In this document: positions 7,213-64,000 of the stretch, in pieces
Position numbering within the stretch: the stretch's first letter is position 1
How the letters are laid out: the number at the start of each line of letters is the position of its first letter
From: Deroplatys truncata
Lineage: Eukaryota; Arthropoda; Insecta; Mantodea; Mantidae
DNA length: 64,000 nt
Reading direction: 5' to 3'
Assembly (NCBI GenBank): GCA_030765065.1
Contig: CM060990.1
Coordinates: 498,284,190-498,348,189 of the forward strand
Made by a program: the position numbers and the translations under genes
Notes under the pieces: model-generated
Database searches by the model: none
The model's input: the letters and a program-made list of their open reading frames with translations, nothing else
Told to the model about the DNA's origin: nothing

Positions 7213-7427
7213 CCATTAGTCATGTTTTATTTGGAGGACAATGTCATGGCCACTAATGGCATGTCACATGAAAAACTGCTGCAGGAAGCTGACCCACATA
7301 CCCCAGAAATTAACAGAAGATGCTTTGAAACTGTTGAACCTGCAGGACAACAGCATTAAATTCACAATTGAAATTGAAGAGAACACCACCTTACCCTTCC
7401 TGAACCTCATTATAACTAGAGATCAAA

Positions 7428-8249
7428 ATGGTTTTAAATTCGGTATACATAGAAAACCTACATGTGGACAATTATATAAAGCAAAATGGTTGCAACCCAA
7501 CTTCACACCAATTAGCCGCCTTTAGAAGTTTGATCCACCGGTTGCATAGCGTCCCCTTGAGCAAAGAAGAATTTTTAAAAGAACAACATATAGAAAAAAT
7601 AGCAGTAACTAATGGATTCAACTCAGATCTCATAAGGAACATGATAAACAAGAAGAAAAAACTCAAGGCAATTTCACATTCCACCACTCTAACACATCTC
7701 TCAAACACAAATTGGAAATACAAGAAATTCACATACCACCCTTGGGCCTTTAGAAAATTTGAACTAATCTTCAACAAATTTAACATAAGACTAGCTCCAC
7801 AGAACAAATTCAGCGTGAAGAACTTGCTAAACATACCTCTCAAAAATACCATCCTAAACACATTAAAATCCGGAATTTACCAGATTAGTTGTGATGAATG
7901 TGAGAAATACTACATAGGAAAAACTAAAAGAAACTTGGAAACCAGACTTAAGGAACACCAAAGGAACACAAAACTAAAACAAATAGAGAAATCCACTGTG
8001 TCACACCATTTTTGGACAGAAAACCACAACATTGGCCAAAGTATAAAGTTGTTAAAACCCCTCACCACACCAATAGAATTGAACATCTGGGAAAAAATAC
8101 ACATCATCAAAAACGGCAACAACGTCATTAATTTTGAAATCCTGCCTGTGAGCAATGTGTTAAAACTTTGTGCCCCCAACACCAGATGGCAACAGATTCA
8201 GAATCCACAGGAAGAGGAAGAAGAGGACACGGGAGAAAGCAACCTTTAG
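7428..8249 (+). pseudogene. Penelope-like RT end plus GIY-YIG endonuclease
   Basis: This is a 273-codon open frame; its first ATG is internal to the element's protein. Residues 1-35 are out of register with the RT, and the family-like region begins near residue 25 (TSHQLAAFRSLIHRL). The GIY-YIG domain starts at residues 149-151 (GIY). It has the Cys-x2-Cys pair typical of Penelope nucleases (C155, C158), YIG at 162-164, the catalytic Arg in ETRLKEH near 173, a SHHFWTENH segment and a later NIWEKIHI segment expected to supply the catalytic Glu. The nuclease would nick target DNA to prime reverse transcription. The upstream RT part (7241-7525) is in another frame. Confidence 0.8.
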
Positions 8250-8379: not shown

Positions 8380-10841
8380 CCCTCCGTCAGGCGCGCGCTT
8401 TGGTAGAACGCCGTTAGTCGCGCGGGGCCTAGTAGATCCGCGCTATATTTTTGTTGTTATTGTTTGAATTTTTGTTTTCCTTCGTTTATTTTCTTTCTTT
8501 TTTTTTTTTTTCCTGTTTTTACCTTTATTTAGATTAAGCGTACAAGGCTTTCATTAATAGGTATTATCTTACAACATAAAAATACAAGCTAAAATATGAG
8601 CACATATATGCTATAAATTGTAATACAGCAAGTATAAAGAAATACATAGCCATTTACAGGTATACATACAACTTGTAATTTCAAATGTTCAGTTACTCAG
8701 AATCATCTACTATCTCACCCGTGTTTTCCCCGACTAAGCAACTTTCGCAAATAATTTTAGCATGTTTGCTCAAACACATGGGGGGTGTTGCATTTCCCAC
8801 ATGCATATTTAGTTTTGCAGTTCATTTTGTTTTTGTTGCAAGGTTCACATCGTTTCCTTTTCAATGTGCATAGTGGTGTATTTGACAATTCATCTACGCC
8901 GGATTCTTCAGGTTTATATTTTGTCAAAAGGTCTTTCAAATCACTGGGTAGATTTGATGCTGTTGCTCTCCTTTGTAGCTGTTGCAACAGTAAAGCTAAA
9001 GATAGTGCTTTCAAATACTCTTGCCTTGTGGAATATTTATTTTGGTTTCCAAGGAAGATAACCCTAGAATTGATACCTGCAATGTTCAAGATATGGTAAA
9101 AAATTACCATGGGCCACCTTCTCGTTGTTCTGGCTACATTGTATGTAGCACACAATTTATCTACTACATCAACTCCAGATTTAGAGTCGTCGTAATGCAG
9201 GATTATTTCAGGCCTTTTCTCAGCACCTTCTGATAACTGTGTGGATGAAACATGTAGACTTGAGAGAAAAACTACTGTTTTACCCTTTTTTGGAACATAT
9301 GAAACAAGAGTTTCATTTTTTGTGAAGCCAAATATGCTTTCGTACTGTCTGCAATCTTTTGGAGAAGTGAAATTAGTGGGTAACTCTTTTTTGTTCTTTC
9401 GCACTGTACCGACGAGAGAAAGTTGTCTTTTGCACAATTCTTTCACCAGCGATACACTGGTAAAAAATTATCTGTAGTAACATTTCGTCCAGTGCCAGAG
9501 ATTGGTTCAGTTAGTCTCAGCACTACAGCTTCTGCCGAGTTAGTTTGCAAATATGGTCCGTCCGGCTGCTGTCAACAATAAATCTCCATGTTAGTTGTAT
9601 AAAACAGTTTTGCATCACTCAAACAGAATATCTTTATGCCATACTTGTTTGGCTTGGATGGTATATATTGTCGAAAACCACATCGACCACGAAATGCTGG
9701 CAACTGTTCATCGACAGTGACATTTTGTTCAAGAGAATAATGGTTCTGACAGTTGTTCAGAAACAATGTAAACATTTCTCTAACAGCAGCCAATTTATCC
9801 AATCTTCGTCGCTCCAGTCTTGAGCTTTTGTCATCAAAGCGAATACAGCGTATTAGAAAACTGAATCGTTTTTCGGACATAGCCATTCGGAATAGAGGAA
9901 TTCCAAGGTCATCGGTTCTCCAAAAATCGTGAATATTCTGGCGTCCACTACGAAAAATTCCTGCCAGGTACAATAAGCCTAGGAAAGCTTTTATTTCTAT
10001 TACATCTGTAGGTCTGCTGTCTCTTTCACGATCAAATTTGTGCTGCACACTGCTAATGTAAGTATTTGAGCTTTCAACAATCAAATCAACTATATCTTCG
10101 GTAACAAAAAGGTTCCAACAATCAATTTCCGTTTTCGCATTTTTGGCAGCTCCTACCACACCAGGAAGTTTGGTCAATATATTGTGAGCCCTTGTCTGTG
10201 TTACTTTCAAAGGTGTTTTGTTACATTTCTTCCTGTAAATAACAACAGAATGTATTGTCAATAATAATAAGAAGAAAAGGAAAAAGAAGAAGAATTACTA
10301 TGATACGCATATGATGTTACCTATAAAATACATGTTATCACACAAGCTGCTTTCATCATCTTCCTCTTCATCTTCATGGTCAGTTTCTGAATCTAAAGAT
10401 CTCGTGTCGAGTTTGTCATCTGATTCATATAAGTTGTCATCCACGGGCAAGGCATCATCATTGCAAATTAGGCGATGTACTTCTTCCAAATCATTCAGAT
10501 TTTGTAGATCGTACCTTTTACTCGTATTCATGACAAAGCAGTAACAGCTCCTTGCAATAGCAAAGCAATATTGCACAAAAGCTAATGAGAAACAAATCTG
10601 TCAACAATATGTAACGAGAGCAGGCGCGCGGGGCCCAGTTGACCTGTGCGACACGTAACTGCTGATTAGTCATTCCTCCAGCCAAACAAATAAACAGATA
10701 AGGTTATCGCTGCAGCAAATAATCACCCAAGGTGTAATGTTAGATGTTCTAGTCAGGCAATTGCATAGGTGCGTTCGTTCGAAAATTATAACATTTATAT
10801 AATTCCAGGGGTCTCTCAGGCCCCTAGCGACTGACGGAGGA
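8380..10841 (-). mobile_element. piggyBac-like DNA transposon, copy 1, near full length
   Basis: A 2462-bp element is bounded by TTAA on both sides. The termini read CCCTCCGTCAG on the left and CTGACGGAGGA on the right, an inverted pair. A subterminal GCGCGGGGCC(T/C)AG motif occurs near 8418 and 10626. The transposase lies on minus (about 10540-8690) and is broken into several frames. A second, related copy starts at 62698. The first ~80 bp are strikingly GC-rich against AT-rich surroundings. The element retains both ends and most coding sequence but needs the lesions described in the transposase entry to be absent to work, so it is a recent but dead copy. Confidence 0.92.
8690..10540 (-). 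pseudogene. piggyBac transposase, broken
   Basis: The N-terminal acidic region (DDESS, near 10350) is followed by the DDE core: VDEQLPAFRGRCGFRQYIP (first Asp, near 9700), GRNVTTDNF (second Asp, near 9475), and HYDDSKSGVDVVDKLCA...RRWPM (third Asp, near 9170). A Cys-rich end (CEPCNKNKMNCKTKYACGKC, near 8830-8780) follows. Compared with copy 2, three lesions are visible: GGA to TGA at 9572-9574, a six- instead of seven-base A run at 9462-9467, and an extra base in the G run near 8781-8787 that shifts the Cys-rich tail. A short intron is possible at 10233-10320 but its flanking frames differ by one base. Confidence 0.88.
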
Positions 10842-12292: not shown

Positions 12293-13729
12293 GATGTTCA
12301 ACATAATGAAAAAGTCTGCAAGCTTGAAGTATAAGGAAATGCAATTACACAAGCCAATTCCAGCATTAAATGTCACTTTTGTCTTATCAGTGACTGAAAT
12401 GTATCAGTGGACCAGTTGCACTGAATAACTCACTTTCCAGCCCATATCAAACTAAAACCGTGCTTTCCAAAGTAAAATGTTTACATTACTCCTGTTCATA
12501 TACCTGATTATGTAGGTATTATAGTTCTCTTAAGTCTCTACTACATTATAAAGAAATGTATAAAGAAACCCCTGTGCCTTTGCAATTCACAAGAGCATAT
12601 ATTCAACGGTGTATTCGTATTGCGCCAATGATCAATTTCTATTAGGGACCTGGCTAATAAGGGTCATTAGGAAGGAGCTATCTAATCAGGTATTTTTCCT
12701 TAAACCCCACTGATTGACAAGTAAGGGCCTAGGTAGAAGAAAGGAAAGGATTAAATGGGTTAACAAACCTTCACAAAACATTTGTGAAGCAATAAGTTTA
12801 TGCATTATACACATATGCATACCACACAAAGGGAATTATTGGAGAAAATAGATTCAATTTGTCTTTTAGCTAATATTAATACTTATTCTTTAGGGACAGT
12901 TTTTGTGTAAAACAAGTTGTTATCCCATTGAATCTGAATGAACTTACTAGAGAGGAATTTCCAGGTTTCTCTGTCCCACATTTGCTAAAAATTGTTGCAA
13001 AGTTTCCTGTTTGTATATTGTACTGTTTATTGAAATAGGAACATAATTAAAATACAGTTCTGACAAATTATATTCAAGATGTTTTTTTGACATTTAAAAT
13101 GCTCTTTACGATGCAGCTTATCAGTGAGACATTCTCTACAGCATACCTATTGATCTTCTCAAAAACAGCTCATCCAATGTTTTAGATATTAGAATGGCAA
13201 ATAAAACGTATATCTTGAATTTTCTACGACAGCCTACAAAGCCACCTTTACTGTTAGCGAATTTCATGCAACTTGAAAACTATAAGGAATTGACAAAAAC
13301 TTACTACACAAAAAAAATTGCAGATTAAAAAAGTTCAAAATATATTTTTTCCTAAGTTTTTAGAAATATTTTGCATCGTATGTTTACATGTTCCCATATG
13401 TAAGTACATCTGAACGGGGATCCTTTAAAAGTCTTCCCCCCCCCCCCAGTTAATCTCATTAAAACAAAAAACATATGATACATTCACATGACTTTCTCTT
13501 TCATTACAATTTCACAGGTACTATTCATATGAAATGCGATTCCTCCATTTCTTTGCATTTGTCACAATGATAAAATGTTTGGCCAGAAATGCTTTCAACT
13601 TCAGTAGAATTAATAATTTCTACATGCTTATATGCAGAGCACTGAACTGTTACAGCTCGCTTTTGTTTGTCTCGAGATTATGGAGGTAAAAAAAAAGTCA
13701 CAAATTATCAAAATATTTCTGTCAATTGT
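12293..13729. other. AT-rich non-coding stretch with a C homopolymer
   Basis: No gene supported. A run of 12 C lies at 13436-13447. Nothing else structured was seen. Confidence 0.5.
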
Positions 13730-14167
13730 ACTCGAAAAACATATAAATGTATTAGGTATAAAATATTTAAAAAACAGTTGATGCTAGGTAAAAAGTTATT
13801 TTGGGGAAGGTGTGTATCTTAATGACTTCTAGGTTTTTCCTGAAATATGTTTCTGCCTATCTTGTATGGTTTCCCAGTCAAATACAGTTTTGTAATACTT
13901 ACTAAATGTAAGGAGAATTTCATAGCCTCTTCCAAGAAAATTCAAGAAATATGGTTTATTTGCCACGTTGTCACACATTTGGTATTTTAATAAAAAAATT
14001 GTTAGAGCCGTTTTTAAGAAAATAAAAAATTAACCAAAATTCCTCCAAGTAAAGGGTAGTTTGGGATGGATTGAATTTTGGGAAAACCTTCCTGTCATAT
14101 CCATGGAAGAAGCAGAACTTAAATATAAAGTTTGTTGGTTTTTAGTTATGGTCTCTCTCTTTAGTTA

Positions 14168-14237
<70 letters not shown>

Positions 14238-14590
14238 GCACATGCACAGAAACCTTTTTCAAAATGCTTTGGGGACTTCAAAACATGTATTTCCAGTGAA
14301 AACTCACTTTTGATTTTTTTGGGTGAAATACAGTACCCACTTCCTCTTCTTGCCATAGGTAGGCCGTAAAAAAAGTAAAAACCAGCTGAAGCAGCTGACT
14401 GTCTCGCGTAAGTAGAAGCATGGAGGAATAAATGTGAGCAAAGTCAAATGGCTTCCATTGAAATAATTTCTAACCAAACATTTTGAGTGTTATTAAGGTG
14501 GGATTTGAAGCATCACTTTTTATAAGAAGCATTGGAATTCTTGGTTGGAATACAACACTTTCTTACCTAACATGTAGAGGACATGAAAAC
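13730..14590 (-). repeat. Composite minisatellite element, short inverted copy
   Basis: Read on minus, this segment has the same order as 49470-51460. It begins with one or two diverged monomers (AAGAAAGTGTTGTATTCCA near 14560; GTGGGTACTGTATTTCACCC near 14330; TCACTGGAAATACATGTTTTGA near 14290). A GA microsatellite replaces the GT run of the other copy (14171-14235). The conserved core follows (TTTATATTTAAGTTCTGCTTC near 14120, CAAACTACCCTTTA near 14055, AACGGCTCTAACAA near 14005). The far end near 13730 is fading similarity and is approximate. No coding capacity was seen. Confidence 0.65.
14171..14235. repeat. (CT)n microsatellite
   Basis: An uninterrupted CT run of about 65 bases, sitting at the monomer/core junction of the composite element at 13730-14590. 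Confidence 0.97.
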
Positions 14591-37112: not shown

Positions 37113-38400
<1,288 letters not shown>

Positions 38401-39959: not shown

Positions 39960-42900
39960 TCAAATGCGACGGCTAAAACCAATGTCAGTGATAAAACGTA
40001 AAAGACATTCTACAGCATGCGCGTCGTCTGCCAACACGTTGGCTAGGCCAACAGGCAGACCCACGCGAACGCGCAGTAGAGCTAAAACTTGACACTCGGT
40101 TAAAATGTGACGGACCGTTAAGGGCACGTCACACTGACCACACACAGGTGCGGGATCACCACTTAACAGGTATCTATGACTAAAAACGCAATGTCCGATA
40201 CGAAGGCGTGTTAAAAGTACCTCTTCCCGACGAGAAGCACGGGAAGAGGTAGCCCAGACTAGCGGAAGAGGTTTAACCTCCCGCAACTTGTTCCCCCGGA
40301 GGGCCGTCCACTCATCGCGCCAGCGCGAGAGTATGCGGCGACGTAAAATAACACACGAATCTGACGAGGGAACAACAGAAGTAAAAAATCTGGGTAATAA
40401 AATCGCCGATTTCGCAGCGGCGTCGGCCGACTCATTCCCTGAGATACCCACATGACCTGGAATCCACATAAAACAGACGCTGATGCCAGAGGCACCCAGC
40501 GAATGGAGCAGGTCATGAATGCGCTGTACGAGGGGGTGGTAAGAGTACAGCGCGTTAATACTCTGAAGGGCACTCAGAGAGTCCGAACAAACAACACAAC
40601 GCCGTAAAACATGCCGCTGAATGTATAAAACACATTGATAGATACTAAAAAGTTCGGCGGTATAAATCGAACATTGCCCGGGTAAACGAAAAGTAAAACT
40701 ATGCGCACCTAAAACAAAGGCACATCCTACTCCAACATCAGTCTTAGACCCATCAGTATAAATAAAATTACAGTCTCCGAATGTTGCCTGAAGTTCTAAA
40801 AATGCGGATCTAAGGACTGAAGCAGGGGTCTCATTCTTCGGCATCGACGTTAGCCCAAAGTGGATGTGGGCCTCAGCGCGCGACCATGGAGGAAAGCGCG
40901 TTTCCCCTCGGGTAAGGGCCGGCGCTGGCGTAACGTCCAAATGCCGAAGTAGCAGTCGAAATCGAACCCCTGGAGGGAGCAATGCAGAGGAGCTAACAAA
41001 ATATTGGCGATCAAGCGAATCCTCGTAAAATACATCGAAGGACGGGTGGTTAGGCAAGCTTGAGAGTCGACAAGCATAGCTGCACAAAAGCATCTCACGC
41101 CGGAAGGACAGCGGAGGCTCTGCAGCTTCTGCGTACAGACTGAGTACAGGGCTAGTTGGAAAGGCCCCTGTAGCGACTCTTATGCCACGATGGTGAATGG
41201 CATTCAATCGACGTAACACAGATGGACGTGCCGACGAATAAACAATACACCCGTAATCAAGCTTGGATCGGACCAAAGAGCGATAAAGGCGAAGAAGGAC
41301 GGTCCGATCAGCTCCCCAGGATGTGCCACTTAAAACACGTAAAAGATTAAGAGAACGGTCACACTTTGCTTTTAAAAAGGAAACGTGCGAGGTCCAACAC
41401 AACTTCCTGTCAAAAATCAACCCCAAAAATTTCGCCTCGTCTGCAAACGGAAGTATCCCTGGCCCAAGATGGAGAGTGGGCGGAGGGAAATACTTCCGGC
41501 GCCAAAAGTTGATGCAGACGGATTTCTCGGCGGAGAAATTAAAGCCGTTGGCGTTACTCCAGGCGTAGAGACGGTCGATACAGCTCTGGAGACGGCGTTC
41601 GAGTAGACAGGTCCGCCGTGAACTGCAATAAATAGCGAAATCGTCAACAAAAAGGGACGATGAAATGCCAGGTGGAATACAATCAACAATGGGGTTGATA
41701 GCAATCGCAAAAAGTGTGACACTGAGTACAGAGCCCTGTGGTACTCCGTTCTCTTGAATAAAACGACGAGATAAAACCGAGCCCACACGTACACGAAAGA
41801 CGCGGTCCGTCATAAACTCCCGAAGAAATATGGGAAGACGACCGCGGATATTCCAATCGTGAAGTGTACGTAAAATGCCGCCCCTCCAACAAGTGTCATA
41901 AGCTTTCTCCAGGTCAAAAAATACAGCCACGGTTTGACACTTTCTCAGAAATCCATTCATAATATGCGTCGACAAGGACACCAGATGGTCGACGGTAGAG
42001 CGATAGCGACGAAACCCGCACTGAGCGTTCGCTAGACGTTTCTGAGACTCAAGCCACCATGTCAACCGCCCGTTGATCATGCGCTCCATCACCTTGCAAA
42101 TGCAACTGGTGAGGGAGATAGGGCGGTAGCTGGAAGGTAGTTGGCGATCCTTCCCAGGCTTAAATATAGGGACAATGGTAGCTTCGCGCCAAACGGAAGG
42201 AAAAATGCCGTCTTGCCAAATACGGTTATAGACCTGTAAGAGAAAGAGTTTACTGTCGGCTGAAAGGTTCTTTAACATCAGGACATGAATGCCGTCCGGC
42301 CCAGGAGCGGAGTGCCGAGAGCAATGAAGAGCGTGCTCCAGCTCCCTCATTGTGAATAGTTCGTTATAGCATTCATCATTAGCAGACCGAAAAGTATACG
42401 ATGCGGAATCCAGCCGGTCTTTAATAGAGCGAAAGCCGGCGGAATAATGGTCTGAACTGGAAACCGCCTCAAAGGCAGCACCCAGTGTTTTAGCGATGGC
42501 AGCCGGATCCACTATGGTGGCATTAGAAACCTGAAGGCCAGAAACAGTACAATGTGACACTTTACCTGAGAAGCGACGAAGTTTATCCCAAACAACGGAT
42601 GAAGGCGTAAAACGATTAAAAGACTCGACAAAACGAGCCCAAGATGCCTTCTTGCTATCCTGAATAATGCGACGAGCCCTGGCGCGCGATTGTTTAAAAG
42701 TCACCAAATTATCAAGTGTAGGGTGTCGCCGAAACACCCTAAGTGCAGTCCTACGGGCACGAACGGCGTCCCGACAATCCTCGTTCCACCACGGAACGGG
42801 TGGCCGCCGAGGTTGGGAGGATGAACGGGGTATTGCGCGTTCGGCGGCAGAGAAAATAACAGACGTAAGGTGCTGCACTAGTTGGTGAATGTCGGAGAAG

Positions 42901-43649
42901 GGCTGGTCGTCAAAATGCACGAGGCTGGAATACAAGCTCCAGTCGGCTTTAGCGAATATCCAGGTAGGTACTCTGGAATGCTGTACGTGGTGCGACAGAA
43001 GAGAAACGATGCAGGGGTAATGGTCGCTGGAGTAGGTGTCAGCGACGACGTTCCACTGAAGACGACGTGCAAGCTGGAGTGAGCAAATTGCAAGGTCGAG
43101 GTGAGAAAATGAACCAGTAGAATCAGAAATAAAAGTAGGTGCACCTGTATTGAGGATGGAAAGATTGAACTGATAAAAAATGTCGGAAAGAAGAGTTCCC
43201 CTCGCACAAGCCCTTGGCGATCCCCATAGTGGGTGATGGGCATTAAAATCTCCCAACAGAAGAAATGGTGTTGGGAGAGCGGACAGGAGAGCTCGAATGT
43301 CCGCGGGAGCGAGGGGAGACGATGGAGGTGTATACACAGAACAAACAGAAAAGAAAAAACCGGGTAACTGCAGTCTAATGGCAACAGCTTGCAAGTCGGA
43401 CGTAAGTGTGATAGGTTGAAAATGAACGTCATTACGCACCAACAACATGACACCTCCATGAGCAGGAGCACCCTCCTCCGGTTCAAGATCGTAGCGAACC
43501 GGAGTGTACCCTCGGAGATCGAAAGGGTCGTGAGGGCGAAGCTTAGTCTCCTGCAAACATACGACCATAGGCGAATGGGAACGCAATAAAAGTTGCAGTT
43601 CCGCCCTATGCGATCGTACACCACGTACATTCCAGGTCAGGATAGCCAT
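39960..43649 (-). CDS. LINE ORF2: endonuclease, reverse transcriptase, RNase H
   Basis: This is a 1229-residue open frame. The AP-type endonuclease (about 1-215) shows TWNVRG, QETKL with Glu34, LLGDFNAHHP (133-140) and SDH (208-210). The reverse transcriptase (about 430-720) shows SAPGPDGI, SSYRPISLTS (506-515), CGFRRYRSTVDHL, FFDLEKAYDT, NGVPQGSVLS and the catalytic FVDD (667-670). The RNase H (about 960-1085) shows all expected residues: Asp965 in YTDGS, Glu999 in TAEL, Asp1023 in CSDS, His1066 in PGH and Asp1076 in ESAD. A Cys-His finger follows (C1170, C1173, H1181, C1186). The protein nicks target DNA and copies the LINE RNA onto it. No stop or missing catalytic residue was seen. The start ATG lies 22 bases after the ORF1 stop. 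Confidence 0.95.
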   Translation of the reverse strand: MAILTWNVRGVRSHRAELQLLLRSHSPMVVCLQETKLRPHDPFDLRGYTPVRYDLEPEEGAPAHGGVMLLVRNDVHFQPITLTSDLQAVAIRLQLPGFFFSVCSVYTPPSSPLAPADIRALLSALPTPFLLLGDFNAHHPLWGSPRACARGTLLSDIFYQFNLSILNTGAPTFISDSTGSFSHLDLAICSLQLARRLQWNVVADTYSSDHYPCIVSLLSHHVQHSRVPTWIFAKADWSLYSSLVHFDDQPFSDIHQLVQHLTSVIFSAAERAIPRSSSQPRRPPVPWWNEDCRDAVRARRTALRVFRRHPTLDNLVTFKQSRARARRIIQDSKKASWARFVESFNRFTPSSVVWDKLRRFSGKVSHCTVSGLQVSNATIVDPAAIAKTLGAAFEAVSSSDHYSAGFRSIKDRLDSASYTFRSANDECYNELFTMRELEHALHCSRHSAPGPDGIHVLMLKNLSADSKLFLLQVYNRIWQDGIFPSVWREATIVPIFKPGKDRQLPSSYRPISLTSCICKVMERMINGRLTWWLESQKRLANAQCGFRRYRSTVDHLVSLSTHIMNGFLRKCQTVAVFFDLEKAYDTCWRGGILRTLHDWNIRGRLPIFLREFMTDRVFRVRVGSVLSRRFIQENGVPQGSVLSVTLFAIAINPIVDCIPPGISSSLFVDDFAIYCSSRRTCLLERRLQSCIDRLYAWSNANGFNFSAEKSVCINFWRRKYFPPPTLHLGPGILPFADEAKFLGLIFDRKLCWTSHVSFLKAKCDRSLNLLRVLSGTSWGADRTVLLRLYRSLVRSKLDYGCIVYSSARPSVLRRLNAIHHRGIRVATGAFPTSPVLSLYAEAAEPPLSFRREMLLCSYACRLSSLPNHPSFDVFYEDSLDRQYFVSSSALLPPGVRFRLLLRHLDVTPAPALTRGETRFPPWSRAEAHIHFGLTSMPKNETPASVLRSAFLELQATFGDCNFIYTDGSKTDVGVGCAFVLGAHSFTFRLPGQCSIYTAELFSIYQCVLYIQRHVLRRCVVCSDSLSALQSINALYSYHPLVQRIHDLLHSLGASGISVCFMWIPGHVGISGNESADAAAKSAILLPRFFTSVVPSSDSCVILRRRILSRWRDEWTALRGNKLREVKPLPLVWATSSRASRREEVLLTRLRIGHCVFSHRYLLSGDPAPVCGQCDVPLTVRHILTECQVLALLRVRVGLPVGLANVLADDAHAVECLLRFITDIGFSRRI

Positions 43650-43671
43650 TAAGAATAAGGGGATAAACTTT

Positions 43672-44988
43672 CTATTTAGAAGGGCGGCTTAAAATTACCT
43701 TTTGTTTAACCTTTGGGCTCGGGCTTTTGGTATGGAGTTGGTCAGACTCCATAGCTTCCTCGGAGGGAGGGCCCACGCGCTCAGTGCCAGAAACCGATTC
43801 AAGCGCCGTGAATCGGTTCTGGGTGGCGATGGGTGAAGGGTGCCGCTGAGCGCGGCTTGTCCCAGGACCATCCTGGGACAGCGACCTCCGAGGAGGAGAA
43901 GGTGAACCTTTGTTACCGCGCGCACGCGGAGGGTCTTTCAAAAAATCTTCCCTACGAAGTTTCTGCTTGGGCTTCTTTTCAACGGCTTGCGACTTCATTG
44001 ACTTGGGACCAGGTTTATACGGCTTGGTAACTGTAGCCTTAATAGACGGCCGGATGGTAGTGGCGGTTAATCCAGTCAAGGTCCAGGTCTGAGTTTCGGC
44101 ATCTACTCGTGGTACCGGCGAGGCAACAACAGAACTAAATGTGCCAGATCGCAGGAGTGAAGGTTGGCGCGCATGGTAACGCCTCCGGGCTTCAGCGAAG
44201 GAGAGTTTTTCCTTTACCCGGATCTCCTGGATCGCCTTCTCGTCCAAGTACCGCGGACAGTCGGCAAACGAAGCAGAATGAGACCCTTTACAATTAACGC
44301 AGACGGGGGCGGTTGAACAGGTACCTTCGTGTGAGGGCTGGCTACAGGTTGCACAGATGTTAACGGCACTCTTACATGAGACTTGCGTATGCCCAAAACG
44401 TTGGCATTTAAAACAACGCAGAGGTCTAGGAATATAAGGCCTCACAGAAATCCGTTCGTACCCTGCGGAAATGCTCGTGGGCAGATCGACGCCATCAAAT
44501 GTAATAAACAGGGTACGAGTGGGTACCAACACGCCGTCGCGTTTGGCCTGCACTCGATGAACCGCTGTCACCCTCTGGTCTGCAAGATATTCCACCAGGT
44601 CTTCGTCAGAGATACCATCGAGGCTATGCGTGGTGACAACGCCTCGACAAGAATTCAAGGTGCGGTGCTTCTCAACACGGATAGGATAACCGTGGAGAAG
44701 CGTGGCGCTCAACAAGGACTTACTTTGTGCCTCGGATTTGCTTTGAACTAGCAACGAACCATTACGAAGCCGAGTGCAGGAAAGAACCGGACCAGCAATT
44801 GAGTCAATGCCCTTCTGGATAATAAAAGGGTTCACCTTCTCGAATGATTGTCCCTCCTCTGTACGGGTAATCACTAAGTAACAACCAGCTGTTGGCGGTG
44901 CTACTTCTGTTACTAAAACTTTGCGGCGCTTGTTGTTAACAATGGAGAAAGGGTGCTCCATAGCGAAAAAAATCCTCCACCATTGCAA
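43672..44988 (-). CDS. LINE ORF1: nucleic-acid-binding protein with zinc knuckles
   Basis: This is a 438-residue open frame. The second Met (residue 10, MEHPFSIVNNKRR) is a plausible real start, since the first nine residues look like 5' UTR. Residues about 110-190 resemble the RNA-recognition-like fold common in such ORF1 proteins. Three Cys-His knuckles follow: C192-C195-H200-C205, C212-C215-H220-C224 and C230-C233-H237-C244. The C-terminal 180 residues are basic and Pro/Ser-rich (PRARGNKGSPSPPRR) and probably disordered. The protein would coat the LINE RNA in the particle that returns to the nucleus. ORF2 follows after 22 bases, close enough for termination-reinitiation. Confidence 0.92.
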   Translation of the reverse strand: MQWWRIFFAMEHPFSIVNNKRRKVLVTEVAPPTAGCYLVITRTEEGQSFEKVNPFIIQKGIDSIAGPVLSCTRLRNGSLLVQSKSEAQSKSLLSATLLHGYPIRVEKHRTLNSCRGVVTTHSLDGISDEDLVEYLADQRVTAVHRVQAKRDGVLVPTRTLFITFDGVDLPTSISAGYERISVRPYIPRPLRCFKCQRFGHTQVSCKSAVNICATCSQPSHEGTCSTAPVCVNCKGSHSASFADCPRYLDEKAIQEIRVKEKLSFAEARRRYHARQPSLLRSGTFSSVVASPVPRVDAETQTWTLTGLTATTIRPSIKATVTKPYKPGPKSMKSQAVEKKPKQKLRREDFLKDPPRARGNKGSPSPPRRSLSQDGPGTSRAQRHPSPIATQNRFTALESVSGTERVGPPSEEAMESDQLHTKSPSPKVKQKVILSRPSK

Positions 44989-45598
44989 CCGTCTCCGACC
45001 TCGGGCTCTGACTTCCCGGGCGTTACCCCGGCTTGGGTGAGTGGCCTATCTATACCTAGCTCACCCCAGGGTCACACCTCCCAGAACATAGACAGAGGGA
45101 CCCAATCGCCGTCGGAAGCCAGCAGCTCATGCAATGGCCCCCCCGCGGGACTGCAGTTGAACAGCGGATACGAACAACAACCCTACATGACGACCCCGGG
45201 TGGTGGGGATGACGCCATTACCCACTCACCCAGCTGCGCACGCGGTGCGCGGGTATCCGTCAGGCTGTGTCCACGGAGGATTTAAATAAAAAGATAAAAG
45301 AAACTAAAACTGTGTGGGCGTTTCGCACGCAAGGTAGGCCGGCGGGGAAGAAAAAGAGATATGCGAATGTCGTGGTACGAAATGGCCGGAAAGTGATTAG
45401 GGAAGAAAGAAACGATGGTGAGGTGCGGTATGGATGGAATGCAAAGAACGCACGAGAGCCTACCTTGGGTCCACCGGTCACTTGAAGAACCCACCTCGAC
45501 CGGATGGGGGTGAGGGGATGAGGGTGGCGATGATTGGCTCGGGAACCCCCGGGTGCGCCAAAAACCCGTACTCACAGAAGGTGAGCCCCTGAGGGGGC
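44989..45598 (-). promoter_or_regulatory. 5' UTR of the I-group LINE
   Basis: About 610 GC-rich bases lie between the element's 5' end and ORF1. An internal promoter is expected in this kind of LINE, since a full-length copy must carry its own, but I recognise no specific promoter element. The short open frames here look incidental. Confidence 0.6.
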
Positions 45599-48827: not shown

Positions 48828-49000
48828 GTCCAAGGTGAGCGTTAGTGCAAAGGAAAGGGTTCATGAATTTAAAAATGACGGATTATATGAATCCGATTCA
48901 AAAACCATAATGTGTCAATACTGTAACTGTACAGTATCTTGGGGTAGAAAAGTTGTGTACAGACAGCTCCAAATGTTTTCCATTCCACCTGTAGGGGGTA
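48828..49000 (+). pseudogene. CGGBP1-like BED-finger fragment
   Basis: Starting at MSKVSVSAKERVHEF the sequence gives a BED/CGGBP1-type zinc finger: KNDGLYESDSKTIMCQYC supplies the Cys-x2-Cys pair, TVSWGRK the middle, and VVYRQLQMF the helix where the family has a R-H-L segment. The first His reads Gln. Arthropod hAT-like transposases carry this finger at the N terminus. Reading remains open to 49089 but loses similarity after about 48990. It is probably an isolated fragment; a related finger end occurs at 55757. Confidence 0.55.
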
Positions 49001-49469
49001 AGCGGGGTGTCTTATCGAGAGGTAATGCCAGGTGCCTTAGCTCATACCTGCTCTACAAAGTTAGAGCGCTAAATAAAATATCATTCTAACACATTTCCCT
49101 TAGACTTGGCTGTAAGAAAGTAATAACTGTGCATTACAGCCCACAAAAGCAGTATACAAAATAATTTTTAGGAATTAGAGGCATCATATTGTTGTACAAT
49201 AAGCAAGTGTTAAAACAAAATCGTTTGCTTTTAGTATTCACTACTTTCTCTACCCATTATCAACTAACCTATGTTCTTTATTTTCATAATGTTCTTATAA
49301 AGTATGGTTTTTCCGTGCACTTTACCTTAATCTGGCAACATTTTAGGCCAGAAATTATTTCAAGTTACAGTCTAAGTTACACTTTTCTCTATTTGGTTGC
49401 ATGCAAGATGTTGTAATGACAAACAGCCGTGTATCTATACCACAGCTCTTCTTTTTACTGTCTCTACTA
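49001..49469. other. Non-coding stretch before the tandem array
   Basis: No gene supported. The last ~50 bases share a CAGCT...TTTTTACT block with the region next to the monomers at 14370-14400. Confidence 0.4.
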
Positions 49470-50893
49470 TTTACCTATAATAATTAGGGAAAGTATTGTA
49501 TTCCACCCAAAAATTAAATAACGAGATTCACTGGAAATACACGTTTTGAGACTCTCTGAATCCAAAGAAAGCATTTTTAATATCTCTACTATGTAGATAC
49601 AGGAGGTAGAGAAAGTATTGTATTCCACCCAAAAATTGAATAACAAGATTCATCGGATATACACGTTTTGGGACCCCCTGAATACAAAGAAACCACTTTT
49701 ACTTTCTCAACTACGTCGTTACATGAGGTAGAGAAAGTATTGTATGCTACCAAAAATTCAATGATATTCAGAAATACTTGTTTTGAGAATCCCTGAATCT
49801 AAAGATAGCATTTTAACTTTCTCAACTATGTAGTTACATGAGGTGGAGAAAGTATTGTATTCCACCAAAAATTCAATGATATTCACCGGAAATACTCGTT
49901 TTGAGACTCCCTGAATCCAAAAAAAGCATTTTTACTTTCTCTACTATGTAGTTACAGTAAGTAGAGCAAATATTGTATTCCACCCAAAAATTCAATAAAG
50001 AGATTCACCGGATATACACGTTTTGAGACTCCCTGATTCCGAACAAAGCATTTTTACTTTCTCTACTACGTAAATACAGGAGGTAGAGAAAGTATTGTAT
50101 TCCACCCAAAAATTGAATAACGAGATTAATACTGGGAATGAAAATATTCATTTTCAGACTCCCTGAAACCAAAGAAAGCGTTTTTACTTTCTCTACTACA
50201 TAGTTACAGTAAGTAGAGAAAGTATTGTGTTCCACCCAAAAATTCTACAAAGAGATTCATTGGAAATACACGTTTTGAGATTCCCTGAATCTAAAGAAAG
50301 CATTTTTACTTTCCCTAAGTAGCTACAGGAGATAGAGAAAGTATTATGTTCTACCCAAAAATTCAATAGAGATTCACTGGAAATGCACGTTTTGAGACTC
50401 CCTGAAACCAAAGGAAGCGTTTTTACTTTCTCTACTACATAGCTGCAGAAGGTAGAAAAATTATTGTATTCCATCACAAAATGAAGAGATTCACCGGAAA
50501 TAGATGTTTTGAGGCTCCTTGAATCCAAAGAAAGCATTTTTACTTTCTCTACTAAGTAGTTACAGTACGTAGTGCAAGTACTGTGTTCCATCCAAATATT
50601 GAATAATGGATTCACCAGAAATACACGCTTTGAGGTTCCCTGAAACCCAAGAAAGTATTTTTACTTTCTCAACTACGTAGTTACAGTAAGTAGAGCAAGT
50701 ATTGTATTCCACCCAAAAATTGAATAACGAATTCAATGGAAACACATGTTTTGAGGACCCTGAATCCAAAGTAAGCATTTTTACTTTCTCTACTACGTAG
50801 CTACAGTAAGTAGAGAAAGTATTGTATTCCACCTAAAAGTTCAATGCCATAATTTCCCAGAAATCACGTTTGTGACTCCCTGAATCCAATGAA
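49470..50893 (+). repeat. Tandem array, about 12 copies of a ~121-bp monomer
   Basis: Each unit reads in order GAGAAAGTATTGTATTCCACC, an AAAAATTgAATAA segment, GATTCACcGGAAATACACG, TTTTGAGACTCCCTGAA.CC, AAAGAAAGC and TTTTTACTTTCTCTACTACG. The GTATTGTATTCC landmark recurs about 12 times between 49491 and 50818, on average every ~121 bases. Units differ by scattered changes and small indels, so it is not freshly amplified. Within each unit CTTTCTCTAC and GTAGAGAAAG form an inverted pair. The array joins the core module at 50894 in the same order as at 13730-14590. Confidence 0.92.
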
Positions 50894-51460
50894 TTTATTT
50901 TTAGAAAAAGGTTCAAGTGTGAGTGGTGTGTGTGTGTGTCCACAAACAGCATAACTCAAAAGCAAACAGTTGGTTAAAAACCGAACTTAGTGTTTAAGTT
51001 CAACTTCTTCCAAGAATGCGGCACTGAGATTTTAAAGAATATCCCCCACTGCAAACTACCCTTTAGATTGGACATTTTTCGAAATTTGTTATTCTTTCCA
51101 AAATGGCTCTAAGAATATTGATTAAAATACATATGTTTAAGCTATTTTCATGATAAATAGAATGTATATCTTTTATTTTCTAGGAATAGTCTGTAAATTA
51201 GTCTTTATTGTGAATGACTGTTGATAATTAGTAAATCGTAAGACAGAGACAAAAATCTTATTGCACAACAACTGTATATCTTGTTAAAGCACAAAATTTA
51301 TATTTAATAACATTTTTATTTTATGTAAAATAACTTTTATATTTTACCTATTCTGAAATATTCTTTGTTATCAGTTTGGATTTTTAAATACTTTATACTT
51401 CTCTCAACTACAAATAGCTATTGTTCTTCTTTCTTTCTTGTGTTCATACAATGAAAACAG
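50894..51460 (+). repeat. Composite element core module, copy at 50.9 kb
   Basis: It starts with AAAAAGGTTCAAGTG and a short GT run, then CTCAAAAGCAAAC, TTTAAGTTCAACTTC, GCAAACTACCCTTTA and AAAATGGCTCTAA. A similar ordered set is found at 52240-52760 and, inverted, at 13730-14150. The core continues after the SINE-B insertion as 52037 to about 52130. No open frame of note. Confidence 0.75.
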
Positions 51461-51477
51461 AATTTCAAAGCTGTCAC

Positions 51478-52020
51478 TCTGTGGCTCACATTCAGGAGGT
51501 TGTGGGTTCGAGTCCTCTGGCCAACCTTCCTGACCCTTGGGTTCTTTCGAGGGGTTTTTCCTGGGTCGCCAGGCAAATGCTAGGAAGGATTCTCATGTCC
51601 CCGAATTTCCTGAACCTCCATTTCATCTCCATTATAATTTCCCTTTATCTTTCATCCGTTGGTCTCTTTCAGGGTTGGGAGTGTTGGCGATGGTGTTTTG
51701 GTGCAGTGTGGCAGGGGAAAAGGATGCTTTTTGTGACTCTCCATCCCTCGGCTTTCAGCTGGCTGTCGGGAGTATCCTAACTTCCTTGAGGGGTGTTGGA
51801 CACCCTCTGTGGTGGGTGGGGTCCCTGGTCTGCCTGTCCGTCTGACGGGGAGTCTCTATCTGAAAACTTAGGGACCCTGCCATTACTATGCCGTCACTCC
51901 TGGTTCCTGACGCCCGGTGTCTCCTCTCGTCTCATCCTTTCTCCCGGAGATGTCCCCTTGTGGGGCGTAGGCACAATATCCTCTATAAGGATCAGTGCCA
52001 AGTCCCCTCCGTAGCCAACT
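51478..52020 (+). repeat. SINE-B copy 2, tRNA-derived, ~543 bp
   Basis: The B-box-like GGGTTCGAGTCC lies at 51504-51515; the A box is missing or truncated. The body matches the copy at 53066 through its whole length, including TTCAGGGTTGG, GCTGTGCCGTCACTCCTGGTTCC-like sequence and a CCGCCCGGTGTCTC-like block. Flanking near-repeats AATTTCAAAGCTGTCAC (51461-51477) and AATCCAAAGCTATCAC (52021-52036) are its target-site duplication. It interrupts the composite core module. Open frames through it are incidental. Confidence 0.75.
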
Positions 52021-52036
52021 AATCCAAAGCTATCAC

Positions 52037-52239
52037 ATAGCGATCAGCTTTGAGGGATTTGGCTATCGGTTTAGCTTAATATGTTTTGGTTATACCTACA
52101 AAGAATTGTGTGAATAAGTGATGAAGGTTTATCAGTATTAACATGACATAGATACAAAATAAGCTTTGTAAGAATAGTTTGTAGAAGAGCAAGCAGGGAA
52201 ATTCATGTGAATGCAACTTATATTCTATAGCAAAAGCTC
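52037..52239 (+). repeat. Composite element, continuation after SINE-B
   Basis: The segment CTATCGGTTTAGCTTAATATG resembles CTATCATTTTAGCTACTGCAT near 52875. GAATGCAACTTATATTCTATAG near 52210 resembles GAATGCAACACGTTAGATTG near 52803. So modules of the composite element repeat here in diverged tandem form. Confidence 0.55.
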
Positions 52240-52940
52240 CATATGCCTGTGAACAACATAAATCCAAAGCGAAAAGTCGGTTAAATACCTAACTTGATAT
52301 TTAAGTTCAGCATCTATCAAAGATATGACAAGGATTTTCAAAAATATCTCCTCCATCCTGAACAACCCTTTACCTGGAAAAATTTTTGAAATTTGTTATT
52401 TTCTTTAAAATGGCTCTAATGATTTTGATTAAAATCCTCTCTGTTTAAAATATTTTCATGAAAAACGAAATATACATTTTGAACTTACTGAAAAGAGCCT
52501 CTCAAGTCTTCGTCATTCTGAATGACTTTTGTATAATTGGTAAACTCTAAAAGATTGGAAAAAGTTTTGCTACACTAGAAATACAGATCCTGTTAAAGCA
52601 TGTAGTTTGTTATACATATATTTTATGAGATTAACCATTTCCCAGTTATTTTTTTTATTGGTTTGAATACTTTTTGTAACTGAGAAGTCGCTATTCATTT
52701 TATTTTTGCCGCGGTCATACAAACAACATGGAATTTCAAAGCATCACGTAGCGAGATTTAGAAAAAAAAATTTGTAGAATGGTGAGAAGAGAAAGTTACG
52801 TGAATGCAACACGTTAGATTGTTCTCGTGGTAATGAAAAGAGCGTGGAGTTTCAAAGACACCACATAAAAATCTGACTATCATTTTAGCTACTGCATTCT
52901 TCTTATACTTGCAACCAAGTTTGTAATGACAGTTCATCTC
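52240..52940 (+). repeat. Composite element core module, third copy
   Basis: Ordered matches to the module at 50894 include AACATAAATCCAAAGCGAAAA, TTTAAGTTCAGCATC, GAACAACCCTTTACCTGGA, GAAATTTGTTATTTTCTTT, AAAATGGCTCTAATGATTTTG and TGGAATTTCAAAGCATCAC. No tandem monomers precede it. From 52760 to 52940 tail modules follow. Confidence 0.7.
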
Positions 52941-53065
52941 AATTAACAAGAAAACTCTTTCACTCAAGCTATGTGTAGGACAAGGTTGGAAAGATAGAAT
53001 CAGATTGAAAAATTCAATGTCATAGCTGAGATTTGAACTATGGATCTTCCAGTTTACGTCCACAT

Positions 53066-53630
53066 GGAGCCGAGGTAACGCGTGCGACTCGCATTTGGGA
53101 GATCCCTAGTTCGCTTCCCGGAACCCGTCCGATCTGACCCACATTTTTTTTTTTGGGAGTCTTCCCAGGTCGTCAGGTGAATGCTGATATGATTTCTCTC
53201 CGCTCCCAAATATCATTCCATGCATTTCATTCATCCGTAACCCCGTTAGGTCTGTTTCAGGGTTGGAAGTGTCAGCGATGGTGTTCCGGTGCGGCATGGC
53301 AGAGAAAAAGGACGCTCTCTGTAGAACCTTATCCATCTTCAGCTGGCTGCCAGGTTATACAGACCGCCTCTTGGGGGGCATTGGACCCTCTGTGTGGTTT
53401 GCCTTCCCGACTGTCAGAGCGTCTCAATCTGGAAACTTTAGGAACCTTGTAATTGCTGTGCCGTCACTCCTGGTTCCGGCCGCCCGGTGTCTCTCACCTC
53501 GTCCCTCCCTCCCTCCCGGGGGCGCCCCCTCGAGAGGGGCACAAGCACATTATCCTCATTCACTGGATCAGGGTCGAGTCTCTGTTACAAATCCAATACC
53601 ATTCCAGACCAGGGAAGGGAAGCATTTTAA
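53066..53630 (+). repeat. SINE-B copy 3, tRNA-derived
   Basis: The best preserved head: GCCGAGGTAACGCGTGCGACTCGC (A-box and anticodon-arm-like) begins at about 53070 and the B-box-like AGTTCGCTTCC lies at 53108-53118. A T run follows at 53145, then the body shared with the copy at 51478. The tRNA-like head shows mismatched arms, so it is a SINE promoter, not a functional tRNA gene. The 3' limit is approximate and no TSD was recognised. Confidence 0.75.
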
Positions 53631-55756
53631 GAATTCAGAACGTGAATCGTAGTATAAAGTACCTAAGTCCTGTTTTTTTGTTTTGTTTTTCCATCTTCAG
53701 ATTTGTAACTTGAAAGCAATTTAATTTTCTGAATAGAGTGCTTTCAATTGAACCAATTGCAACAAAAGCACATCAACTGGTCTGCATTAACACTTTCTGG
53801 TCACTATTTTGAAAATTTAGCTTATATATTACCCTAACCAAATAAAACAGCTATACAGAAACTGCATATTTTGCACTAAACGTTGTTTCCTCGTATCTAC
53901 TAACATTTTCTCCTTTTGGATACAATACCTACATAGGTGTTTTTACTCTACGTCCACTATACAACTGGCAGGCACGATTTTTCTTCCTTTCTTTTGTGAG
54001 TGTGTGCAAAGGAAATTATGTTTCAAATAAAACAATCTTTATTCATTTTTCAGTAACAAACGCAAAATATATCTCATTTTGAAGAAAATTTAATGTTGCA
54101 CTTAATTGTGCTCAAACTGTTTCAACAGTTTGACATTAATATTATTTTTGCTTCCATATTTTTAAAACATTACTTAAATATTATCGCAACTGAATGTGCC
54201 AACTGTATGGAACTACAAACTTAGCGCTAAATGTTGTGATCAATATCTATGAAAATTAAAAAGCAAAACGAACTTATATTCAAGGCAATAAATACCCTCT
54301 GCTTCGGAGTACATGCAGAATATTTTATTGGTGATAATTATGAAACTATTATTATTATTTATTGCTAGCAACAAACGTTAAAAACAAGATATACATTAAG
54401 CGAACCTTGTTTCTCAAGAAAATTACTTAATCTTAAACTTGTGTAGCACCCGCATAAAGAGTGCAATATTTGATTTTTAAATAACATATTATGCAAAGAA
54501 AATGTTAATTTATTTTGCTTGAATAGATCTAGTAAAGAGAAAAATATTTAGTTTCATATTCTTTCCTCTTGGAGTCAGGTCGCTGAATTATATGAGCATA
54601 CACAGAAGTAAATGTGACCTTTGAGATGATACCGGCACTTACTGTTGGCTATAGCCAGGCATGACTAGTCGAGAAGACATTTCTTCCCCCTCTTCCTCTA
54701 CACCCATTGGTCCATCGGAAAACATGAAGTACTGTTCTTCAATTTGTAGATAGGAGGTTGTGTAATTATTTGGAGGAGTTTGCCCCACAGTTGTATGCTA
54801 ATTTGAAAAATAGCAATTTTAGCGTTGTTTATGATGCGAGATGTTTCTTGTAAGCTCCACGTTTTGCGTCAATTTGCGGTAGGTTTTTGGTTACATAAAT
54901 ATTATTAAGGTTACGTAATAAAGATACACTTTGATGTTGTTTGATTTTTAGGATGTCAAACTTTATAGTGAAGATGATGCTTGTTTTTACGTAATATTAT
55001 TAATGTTATTTGCCTCGGCTGCTTTCAGTCGACTATAGAAACACAAGTTCTTGTAGGGTTGTGATAAGACTCAAATTATAAAATGCCACGCAATTTACTT
55101 TTTAATTTTTTACTTCTTTTTATTTCACTTTATATATGCACAGTTTTATAAACACAACACTTTATAAAATAAAACTGTGAGCACTTAATACATTTTTGGC
55201 AGAGAACACAAATTTTATCATTTATACTTTACAACATTTTTACACACGACTTTCACGTCTACTCTTCACAACTTCATGTCCGCGACTGACTAGATTCAAT
55301 GGTACAAATCTTTAGCGTCGGTAATGCCATTCTCCTATTGGCTGATTCTAGTCCAATAGAATTTAAGTATTCAAACTAAACATCTTTCTTTACTTTTGAT
55401 TGGCTAATTCCAAACTGTAAGCGAAATTACGTTATTACCGATCTTTTTATAACCAGTATTTTTTTTAAAATTCCAGACACATTACTGTCACCAAAATTAC
55501 ATTATTGCCTCATTATTAACATCCTAAAACATAGTATTCTCAAATTTTTTGCACTATTAGAGTATATAAACATTTACATATCACTAATAAATATGTTTAC
55601 AATAAAAATAAGTATTTACAATGACTTTACATACAATATAAATAATAACTATATACATACTGTTTTCAAGGTGGGCTGTTATTGAATTAAATTAATAAAA
55701 AATACAATTAGTATCATTTAGGCATTAAAATACTGCCTCAAAAATTTGGAGCCTTC
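53631..55756. other. AT-rich non-coding stretch
   Basis: No gene supported. Faint tandem similarity exists between about 53840-54130 and 54190-54460 (shared CACTAAACGTTG / CGCTAAATGTTG and AGTAACAAACG / AGCAACAAACG). It is too weak to call firmly. Confidence 0.4.
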
Positions 55757-62697: not shown

Positions 62698-64000
62698 CCC
62701 TCCGTCAGGCGCGCGCTTTGGTAGAACGCCGTTAGTCGCGCGGAGCCTAGTAGACCTGCACTATATTTTTGTTGTTATTGTTTGTATTTTTGTTTTTTTT
62801 TCGTTTATTTTCTTTTTTCCTGTTTTTACCTTTATTTAGATTAAGCGTACAAGGCTTTCATTAATAGGTATTATCTTACAACATAAAAATACAAGCTAAA
62901 ATATGAGTACATATATGTTATAAACTGTATTACAGTAAGTATAAAGAAATACATTGCCATTTCCAGGTATACATACAACTTGTAATTTCAAATGTTCAGT
63001 TACTCAGAATCATCTGCTATTTCACCCGTGTTTTCCCCGACTAAGCAACTATCGCAAATAATTTTAGCATGTTTGCTCAAACACAGGAGGGTGTTGCATT
63101 TACCACATGCATATTTAGTTTTGCAGTTCATTTTGTCTTTGTTGCTGGGTTCACATCATTTCCTTTTCAATGTGCATAGTGGTGTATTTGACAATTCATC
63201 TACTCCAGATTCTTCAGGTTTATATTTTGTCAAAAGTCCTTTCAAATCATCAGATAGATTTGATGCTGTTGCTCTCCTTTGTAGCTGTTGCAACAGTAAA
63301 GTTGTCTTTTGCGCAATTCATTCACCAGCGATACACTGGTAAAAAAATTATCTGCAGTAACATTTCGTCCAGTGCCAGAGATTGGTTCAGTTAGTTTCAG
63401 CACTACAGCCTCTGCCGAATTAGTTTGCAAATTGGGTCCGTCCGGCTGCTGTCCACAATAAATCTCCATGTTAGTTGTATAAAACAGTTTTGCATCACTC
63501 AAACAGAATATCTTTATGCCATACTTGTTTGGCTTGGATGGTATATATTGTCTAAAAGCACATCGACCACGAAATGCCGGCAACTGTTCGTCGACAGTGA
63601 CACTTTGTCCAAGAGAATAATGGTTCTGACAGTTGTTCAGAAACAATGTAAACATTTCTCTAACAACGGCCAATTTATCCAATCTTCGTCGCTCCAGTCT
63701 TGAGCTTTTGTCATCAAAGTGAATACAGCGTATTAGAAAACTGAATCTTTTTGGACATAGTCATTCGGAATAGAGGAATTCCAAGATCGGTTCTCCAAAA
63801 CTCGTGAATATTCTGGTGTCCACCACGAAAAATTCCTGCCAGGTACAATAAGCCTAGGAAAGCTTTTATTTCTATTACATCTGTAGATCTGCTGTCTCTT
63901 TCAACATCAAATTTGTGCTGCACAATACTAATGTAAGTATTTAGGCTTTCAACAATCAAATCAACTATATCTTCGGTAACAAAAAGGTTCCAACAATCAA
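62698..64000 (-). mobile_element. piggyBac-like transposon, copy 2, internally deleted, runs off the window
   Basis: Same terminus and order as copy 1 (8380-10841) and very similar throughout. Relative to copy 1 it lacks 427 bases, the stretch equivalent to 8996-9422, joined at a shared AAAG (63298-63301). The transposase lies on minus. The right end is beyond base 64000. Confidence 0.92.
62999..64000 (-). pseudogene. piggyBac transposase copy 2, broken and internally deleted
   Basis: From the window end downwards it reads the region before the first Asp, then (63682-63242) VTVDEQLPAFRGRCAFRQYIP, EIYCGQQPDGP, and GRNVTADNFFTSVSLVNELRKRQ with the second Asp. The deletion then removes the third-Asp region and RRWPM block, and its length (427) also shifts the frame. 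The Cys-rich tail (CGKCNTLLCLSKHAKIICDSC near 63112-63050) is in frame with the stop at 63000 and better kept than in copy 1. A two-base loss near 63745-63753 breaks the frame upstream. It cannot encode an active transposase. Confidence 0.9.

Follow-up and report, generated by a model that had tools for sequence, protein, structure and literature searches.

The composite repeat and its arrangement in the window

The stretch under study, hereafter the window, comprises 64,000 nucleotides from the mantis Deroplatys truncata (assembly GCA_030765065.1, contig CM060990.1, positions 498,284,190 to 498,348,189 of the forward strand) and sits on a contig designated C16 (707 Mb, 16.5% of the 4.29-Gb host assembly of 818 contigs). 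It contains a composite repeat in which ~121-bp monomers, a microsatellite and a conserved core follow one another. Together these parts form one non-autonomous Helentron derivative with Helentron-type ends, ~870 bp long, for which we use the name HINE (Helentron-associated non-autonomous element). A preliminary description, made from the sequence of the window, had reported the composite repeat at three places, and the arrangement was confirmed. At the first place, Tandem Repeats Finder defines an array at 49485-50893 (period 122, 11.7 copies, 79% matches) that leads directly into a (GT)n run and then core 1. Monomer cutting gives 12 units with a spacing of 115-130 bp, the final unit being shortened and a partial unit lying ahead of the first; the shortened last unit excepted, the monomers are 67-90% alike. 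Each monomer contains an inverted repeat with the arms CTTTCTCTACT and AGTAGAGAAAG, which enclose a short loop in the consensus fold. Core 1 aligns to core 2 (from 52240 on) with a local score of 395, the best of 60 shuffles reaching 139, and to the inverted copy at 13.7-14.1 kb with a score of 253, the best shuffle reaching 125. For the inverted copy, the described order of parts and the GA run (TC/GA, 14171-14235) stand, but of the "one or two monomers" only one does, at ~14381-14261; the possible second is a short lone 5′ fragment at ~14533-14568.

Copy numbers given below are counts of first-look candidates, of which the best 40 were scored. Thirty loci were fetched through the core query with 1.5 kb on each side, and six 10-kb stretches were then read because similarity ran on past the array and core 2. 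The first and third places of the composite repeat both sit within one larger element at 48960-54734, a terminal inverted repeat (TIR) transposon that we call the carrier. Model coordinates refer to an 875-position profile built from short free HINE copies and carrier pieces. The relevant features of the window are:

48960-54734, + strand: carrier element 'E', a non-autonomous TIR transposon; ends shared with the copies in 10-kb stretches and with further copies; TA on the left (48958-48959), TT on the right, read as diverged TA
49448-50893, + strand: monomer array of 121-bp units, each the HINE 5′ terminus (T run, 12-bp subterminal inverted repeat [subTIR], inverted repeat) up to an internal T run; model ~2-127
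50778-51472, + strand: HINE 1, consisting of the final monomer, GT run and core; model 2-667
51478-52024, + strand: insertion resembling a short interspersed element (SINE-like), flanked by the direct repeats 51466-51477 and 52025-52036; 29 of the 30 fetched copies yielded it at 80% coverage
52025-52224, + strand: HINE 1, 3′ part with a degraded 3′ subTIR; model 659-860
52226-52829, + strand: HINE 2, the "core without monomers", starting at the first internal T run (model 125), with an internal deletion of model 677-797, and ending at the 3′ terminus
52823-52952, + strand: extra 3′ module from the second internal T run; model 631-782
53081-53595, + strand: second, diverged SINE-like segment, related to 51478-52024
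13460-14381, − strand: free-standing HINE with one monomer, GA run, core and 3′ end, identified by profile match and end features
13150-13394, + strand: HINE core fragment; model 302-583

The SINE-like insertion separates core 1 from its tail, and its flanking 12-bp direct repeats are identical at 11 of 12 positions. A private SINE insertion at 51473-52030 was considered and rejected, as the segment is common to most carrier copies. It includes GGTTCGAGTCC, which we take to resemble a tRNA-type promoter box; no tRNA or Rfam RNA was found at gathering score within the window. A coding origin of the core found no support (a scan of 10 of the 24 open reading frames [ORFs] of the carrier copy L036 gave no Pfam match), and exact-pattern scans of viral and prokaryote collections gave no match. 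A simple tandem duplication of cores 1 and 2 was dropped in favor of a split outer copy once the model boundaries were known.

Helentron-type ends and an autonomous partner

Searching the genome with the core returned 8315 candidates, and the 40 scored comprise the window copy and 39 others at 88-92% identity. All 30 fetched loci have at least two monomer matches upstream of the core, usually abutting it, with a gap of ~300 bp in L005. The same association was found in four unselected 10-kb stretches (L043, L044, L045, and L046) scanned with the 875-position profile, where 12 of 13 monomer matches fall within or adjoin the 5′ end of an element with a core, the thirteenth being a lone fragment (positions by eye). 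The preliminary description had named a chance neighborhood of two unrelated repeats as the alternative; nothing was found in its favor, and on the evidence of the fetched loci and the unselected stretches it was rejected as having a negligible probability. More than 40% of L043 and of L044 is HINE, L045 holds a fragment and L046 none, which amounts to 8809 of 40000 bp (4402, 4131, 276, and 0), too uneven a share for a genome estimate. Shorter and more diverged HINE copies or parts also occur outside the carrier in three of the six 10-kb stretches, and L035 has a fragment. The free HINE copies inspected have one monomer each.

A free HINE of 863 bp, used as query, gave 6146 candidates. The 39 scored places besides the query all start at query 1-8, end at 840-856 and are 89-92% identical, so that the same two ends are common to every one of them. 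The left end is TTTTT-ACTTTCTCTACT-loop-inverted repeat, and the right end is AGTAGAGAAAGT-C-ATGTG-loop-CACAT-CAGA-TTTTT. Terminal features were scored on ends hand-picked from 18 elements (11 5′ ends and 13 3′ ends). With at most three substitutions, the 12-bp subTIR is present in 10 of 11 5′ ends and in all 13 3′ ends; a diverged twelfth 5′ end (L033:1083), outside the script, shows two substitutions by eye. In all 10 ends with the 5′ subTIR, an inverted repeat (substitutions allowed) lies 10-14 bp from it. For Helentron-associated HINE/DINE-1 elements, subTIRs of 11-15 bp and a distance of 3-22 bp to the inverted repeat are expected. The 3′ hairpin, ATGTG-loop-CACAT, has no more than one mismatch in nine of 13 3′ ends and two mismatches in the other four. 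A T run of 3-6 lies ahead of 10 of 11 5′ ends, a T run of at least four past 11 of 13 3′ ends, and T runs are also where nested copies meet.

Thomas et al. 2014 (PMC4067079), in the parts consulted, list the subTIR, the paired inverted repeat, the 3′ hairpin and T-run flanks as marks of Helentrons and their derivatives. The marks of canonical Helitrons (Helitron1), namely 5′ TC, 3′ CTRR and insertion between A and T, are absent from the HINE, the ends of which are TTTTTACTTTCTC and CAGATTTTT. The preliminary description had seen no Helitron ends and had left the class open; the Helentron-type ends escaped notice because the window copy lies buried in the TIR element among nested HINE pieces.

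The genome was also searched for the Helitron_like_N domain (PF14214), which gave 152 matches from 150 scored candidates, 18 of them listed in open frames of at least 2000 aa. Two of these 18 frames were read, copy A (L061) and copy B (L062), which are 98.9% identical across 10.4 kb and each contain a 2324-aa ORF. The copy A ORF includes Herpes_teg_N-like, DUF6570, Helitron_like_N and PIF1 helicase (PF05970) domains. At its C terminus an Exo_endo_phos_2 match (E 4.3e-6) was seen only when the C terminus was scanned alone, with 27.0 bits against a cut-off of 27.4; a C-terminal endonuclease is what separates Helentrons from other Helitrons in the consulted parts of PMC4067079. The Herpes_teg_N-like domain lies at the start of the copy A protein (aa 67-212, E 1.2e-8), whereas the same parts of that article name OTU proteases as the additional N-terminal domain. 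The 5′ end TTTTTACTTTCTCTACTACG and the 3′ end CACATCAGATTTTT of copy A are the HINE ends. The genome that carries the HINE thus has an autonomous partner with the same termini and a predicted Rep/helicase-endonuclease fusion. The 5′ non-coding part of the Helentron consists mostly of HINE modules, and the HINE therefore derives from this Helentron or from near kin. With common ends and an autonomous Helentron that has the same ends, the earlier suggestion of a dispersed element of the Helitron-related DINE/pearl-type plan, with an expandable minisatellite, is supported. The minisatellite is expandable as suggested, but it is not internal, since it is the reiterated 5′ terminus.

As far as the consulted parts of PMC4067079 describe them, Helentrons, HINEs and DINE-1 share with the mantis element 12-15 bp subTIRs (13 bp in DINE-1), an inverted repeat close to the 5′ subTIR, a 3′ stem-loop, a microsatellite, a T-rich target and an autonomous partner with a Rep/helicase-endonuclease fusion. 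The mantis element differs from that description in having tandem repeats of the 5′ terminus itself, with two periods, and in the position of the 3′ subTIR, ~22 nt from the T run as against 38-60 bp from the 3′ terminus in mite elements.

A TIR carrier with TA target duplication

At 49-55 kb the outermost mobile unit is the carrier, not the Helentron derivative. The carrier is a TIR element with a TA target duplication. Its ends are sharp and common to copies: the left one reads TACAGACGGCTCCAAATGTTTTCCG, the right one CGGAAAACATTTGAAGCCCACTGTA, and in four copies the distance between them is 5.5 to 6.2 kb; in the consensus the TIR arms are identical at 20 of 23 positions, and the right arm of the window copy is more diverged. 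A search with the left end gave 1735 candidates, of which 29 of the 40 scored start at query 7-8. TA stands at the left end in 11 of 13 distinct copies (L016 and L034 are without it) and at the right end in eight of nine, the window copy having TT. Right-hand stretches were fetched for six copies, and the right end was found in four and not in the other two. Both sides carry TA in seven of the eight copies with both ends seen, the exception again being the window copy. The L033 carrier sits in an abundant repeat with matches on many contigs; four empty relatives of this site align ungapped to the joined flanks, and the letters are TA in one of the four (L071), with nearby bases differing. A GTAC or 8-bp target duplication was weighed and dropped for TA on the end pairs and the L033 empty site.

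The TIR and the TA target duplication, which are the mark of IS630-Tc1-mariner elements, were both found on the outer carrier, and TA together with a TIR that starts with CAG presumably points to Tc1/mariner. Compared with Tc1/mariner elements, the carrier has the same TIR start and target duplication; it differs in being 5.5-6.2 kb long, with nested HINE cargo, and in its coding content, no transposase having been found in 10 of the 24 ORFs of L036 (no search was made for a partner with the same TIR).

These properties raise the alternative that the whole is a Tc1/mariner-like TIR transposon with a TA target and an internal minisatellite, the likeness to Helentrons being incidental. The shared ends and TIR of 48960-54734, TA on both sides of most copies and the one empty site speak for it, and it holds true of the outer carrier only. 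In two of the four unselected stretches, monomer, core and tail occur together, and a third has a core/tail fragment, whereas the carrier's own parts are represented there by a single 29-bp match. The repeat is, moreover, part of the autonomous Helentron, and the scanned ORFs of L036 count against this alternative as well. As an account of the whole, we consider it very improbable.

The best carrier matches crowd on C16, which holds 26 of the 40 scored with the core and 29 of the 40 scored with the left end, window copy included (binomial p 9e-12 and 7e-15); the 40 were picked for their similarity to a carrier query that comes from C16. C16 accounts for one of the 40 best free-HINE matches and for none of the 18 listed Helentron frames of at least 2000 aa.

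Stacked 5′ termini and the proposed growth of the array

The HINE has two internal T runs, the first ~121 bp from the left end (CATTTTT, ahead of the GT run) and the second at ~625 (TTATTCATTTTTT). The window monomers correspond to the 5′ end up to the first T run; the autonomous copies repeat the same HINE 5′ terminus at a ~643-bp period, up to the second T run. Copy A opens with a pair of 5′ modules (model 2-625 and 3-750). In copy B the same pair is preceded by a further module (275-625, cut by the end of the stretch), and past its 3′ end there are two 3′ modules (626-868 and 624-870); every join is at a T run. The HINE 2 of the carrier begins at model 123-128 in six of seven copies (at 167 in L035), and the extra 3′ module that follows it starts at model 627-631 in all seven. 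Several HINE pieces in both orientations were also seen in L033 (1-1800), including a direct tail-to-head junction, TCAGAGATTTTTACTTTCTC.

Boundaries were tallied for 118 profile hits clear of locus ends, copies A and B being left out; since array monomers and carrier copies make up most of the hits, these are not independent events. The left boundaries fall at the 5′ end in 85, the first T run in seven, the second T run in eight, the SINE-like split in seven and elsewhere in 11. The right boundaries fall at the first T run in 68, the 3′ end in 26, the SINE-like split in seven and elsewhere in 17.

The reading that we consider probable is that the HINE is moved by rolling circle through the proteins of the autonomous Helentron, inserts in T runs and stacks its 5′ ends by self-insertion, and that one such nest was spread within the TIR carrier. 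Mobilization would most likely involve the Rep, helicase, and endonuclease of a Helentron with a still-open frame. Insertion into an internal T run would split the outer copy into a left piece with only a 5′ end and a right piece with only a 3′ end, and a next round beginning at the outer 5′ end and terminating at the first 3′ end would yield a product with two 5′ termini. Repetition would give the minisatellite if it took place at the 121-bp T run, and the ~643-bp repeats of the autonomous element if at the 625-bp one. In this reading, an outer HINE was split at its first T run, and its right piece is the "core without monomers" of the window. One stacked nest would then have been caught in a TIR element with a TA target duplication and have spread along with it. 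The element ends, their presence on the autonomous element, the module boundaries at T runs, the nested copies and the TIR carrier were observed; what we infer are the transposition steps and the respective shares of self-insertion and unequal exchange in the array. Copy B is built like a nest, in which the Helentron is surrounded by the left and right pieces of two outer HINEs, and copy A like a product, with an extra 5′ module, one 3′ end and new flanks. Recursive self-insertion at T runs, a model put forward for Fusarium Helitrons, gives the best fit, and later unequal exchange may have helped the array reach ~12 units.

A more specific form of this proposal, to which we would give somewhat less than an even chance, is that the minisatellite is a ladder of alternative 5′ ends, in which each self-insertion at a T run, followed by transposition, would add one terminal module, and the length of the monomer would be the distance from the 5′ end to the next T run.

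Alternatively, a single initial duplication of the 5′ end, by self-insertion or slippage, could have been followed by growth through unequal exchange or slippage, as in an ordinary minisatellite, without a Helentron for each repeat. Array length ranges from two partial monomers (L006 and L029) to 14 hits (L032, L034, and L035), and pairs less than 3% different make up four of 653 within a locus versus two of 16000 between loci, as local growth would have it. The kinship of 183 full monomers from 30 scanned copies, 28 of them contributing, bears on both sides. In 152 of the 183 the nearest relative lies in another locus, and most of the array was therefore inherited ready-made with the carrier. 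The remaining 31 are nearest to a monomer of their own array, compared with 7.5 in shuffles (21 are in L035, L027, and L021), and local expansion therefore also occurs. Against local growth also stands the recurrence of the same terminus at a ~643-bp period, joined at the other T run. We put the probability of growth by exchange or slippage after one duplication somewhat below one half.

Several results weigh against stacking by self-insertion and rolling-circle movement, the same-array kinship of those 31 monomers among them. Pure nesting predicts equal numbers of left and right pieces, and the window has ~12 monomers versus one right piece from the first T run. None of the 118 right boundaries lies at the second T run, a boundary seen in the autonomous copies only. 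Between copies A and B, the left 5′ module has 15 differences in 643 positions, the next 1.8 kb eight mismatches and four gap positions, and the last 900 bp two mismatches; with its left module more diverged than the rest, A is therefore not a plain recent copy of a B-like nest, and other HINEs may have caused conversion, or the two copies may have separate histories. An empty site in host DNA was found neither for the HINE nor for the Helentron: a pooled query of ten joined flanks, two of them junctions of this type, gave 10642 candidates and was swamped by one repeated flank, all 40 scored matching the L033 flank alone. The evidence on the autonomous element comes from just two of the 18 listed frames, and none of the results indicates present Helentron activity.

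Two further systems are among the closest known. In the Pacific oyster, according to the consulted parts of PMC7492417, which also discusses Pearl elements, satellite-like arrays of mostly 140-180 bp monomers are carried and dispersed by Cg_HINE elements that have a 5′ subTIR with inverted repeat and a microsatellite, as in the mantis. In Cg_HINE the subTIRs and the microsatellite belong to flanks on the left and right of the array, whereas in the mantis the 5′ subTIR and inverted repeat are part of each monomer and the microsatellite comes after the array. For the Fusarium FoHeli elements, the accessed part of PMC5148889 proposes self-insertion and then transposition of everything between the outer 5′ end and the first 3′ end, a model that yields two 5′ termini and one 3′ terminus, and 5′ terminal sequence is repeated in both systems. 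The fungal duplications described there are of 31-85 nt, typically less than 200 bp, with two or more termini; the mantis differs in having ~12 copies, two periods, and nested as well as product-like copies. Our literature search, mostly of titles and abstract openings, met no Helentron minisatellite built of 5′ termini. The new feature is a HINE that has its own 5′ termini as the units of its satellite-like array and is carried by an unrelated TIR element; it is otherwise of a known kind.

Elsewhere in the window there is an apparently intact non-LTR (long terminal repeat) retrotransposon (39960-45045, − strand), with a 1242-aa ORF containing endonuclease, reverse transcriptase, and RNase H domains; the 457-aa ORF ahead of it has no Pfam match. 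A DDE_Tnp_1_7 transposase remnant lies at 8757-9467 (− strand), and unscanned ORFs at 9572-10600 and 63242-63760 (− strand) are similar-looking or neighboring. Mobile-element remnants on the + strand, at 37466-38113 and 7416-8249, comprise a Transposase_1 match slightly below cut-off and a GIY-YIG ORF.

Helentron derivatives are known as carriers of satellite-like arrays, and the origin of the arrays is less clear. In D. truncata, the monomer boundaries are tied to two measurables, the 5′ terminus of the element and its internal T runs. Nested and product-like copies, together with open autonomous frames in one genome, make the mechanism of satellite birth testable, and a rolling-circle nest has been multiplied as the cargo of a TIR element. 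If the proposed mechanism is true, the Helentron itself would make satellite DNA from its own 5′ end.

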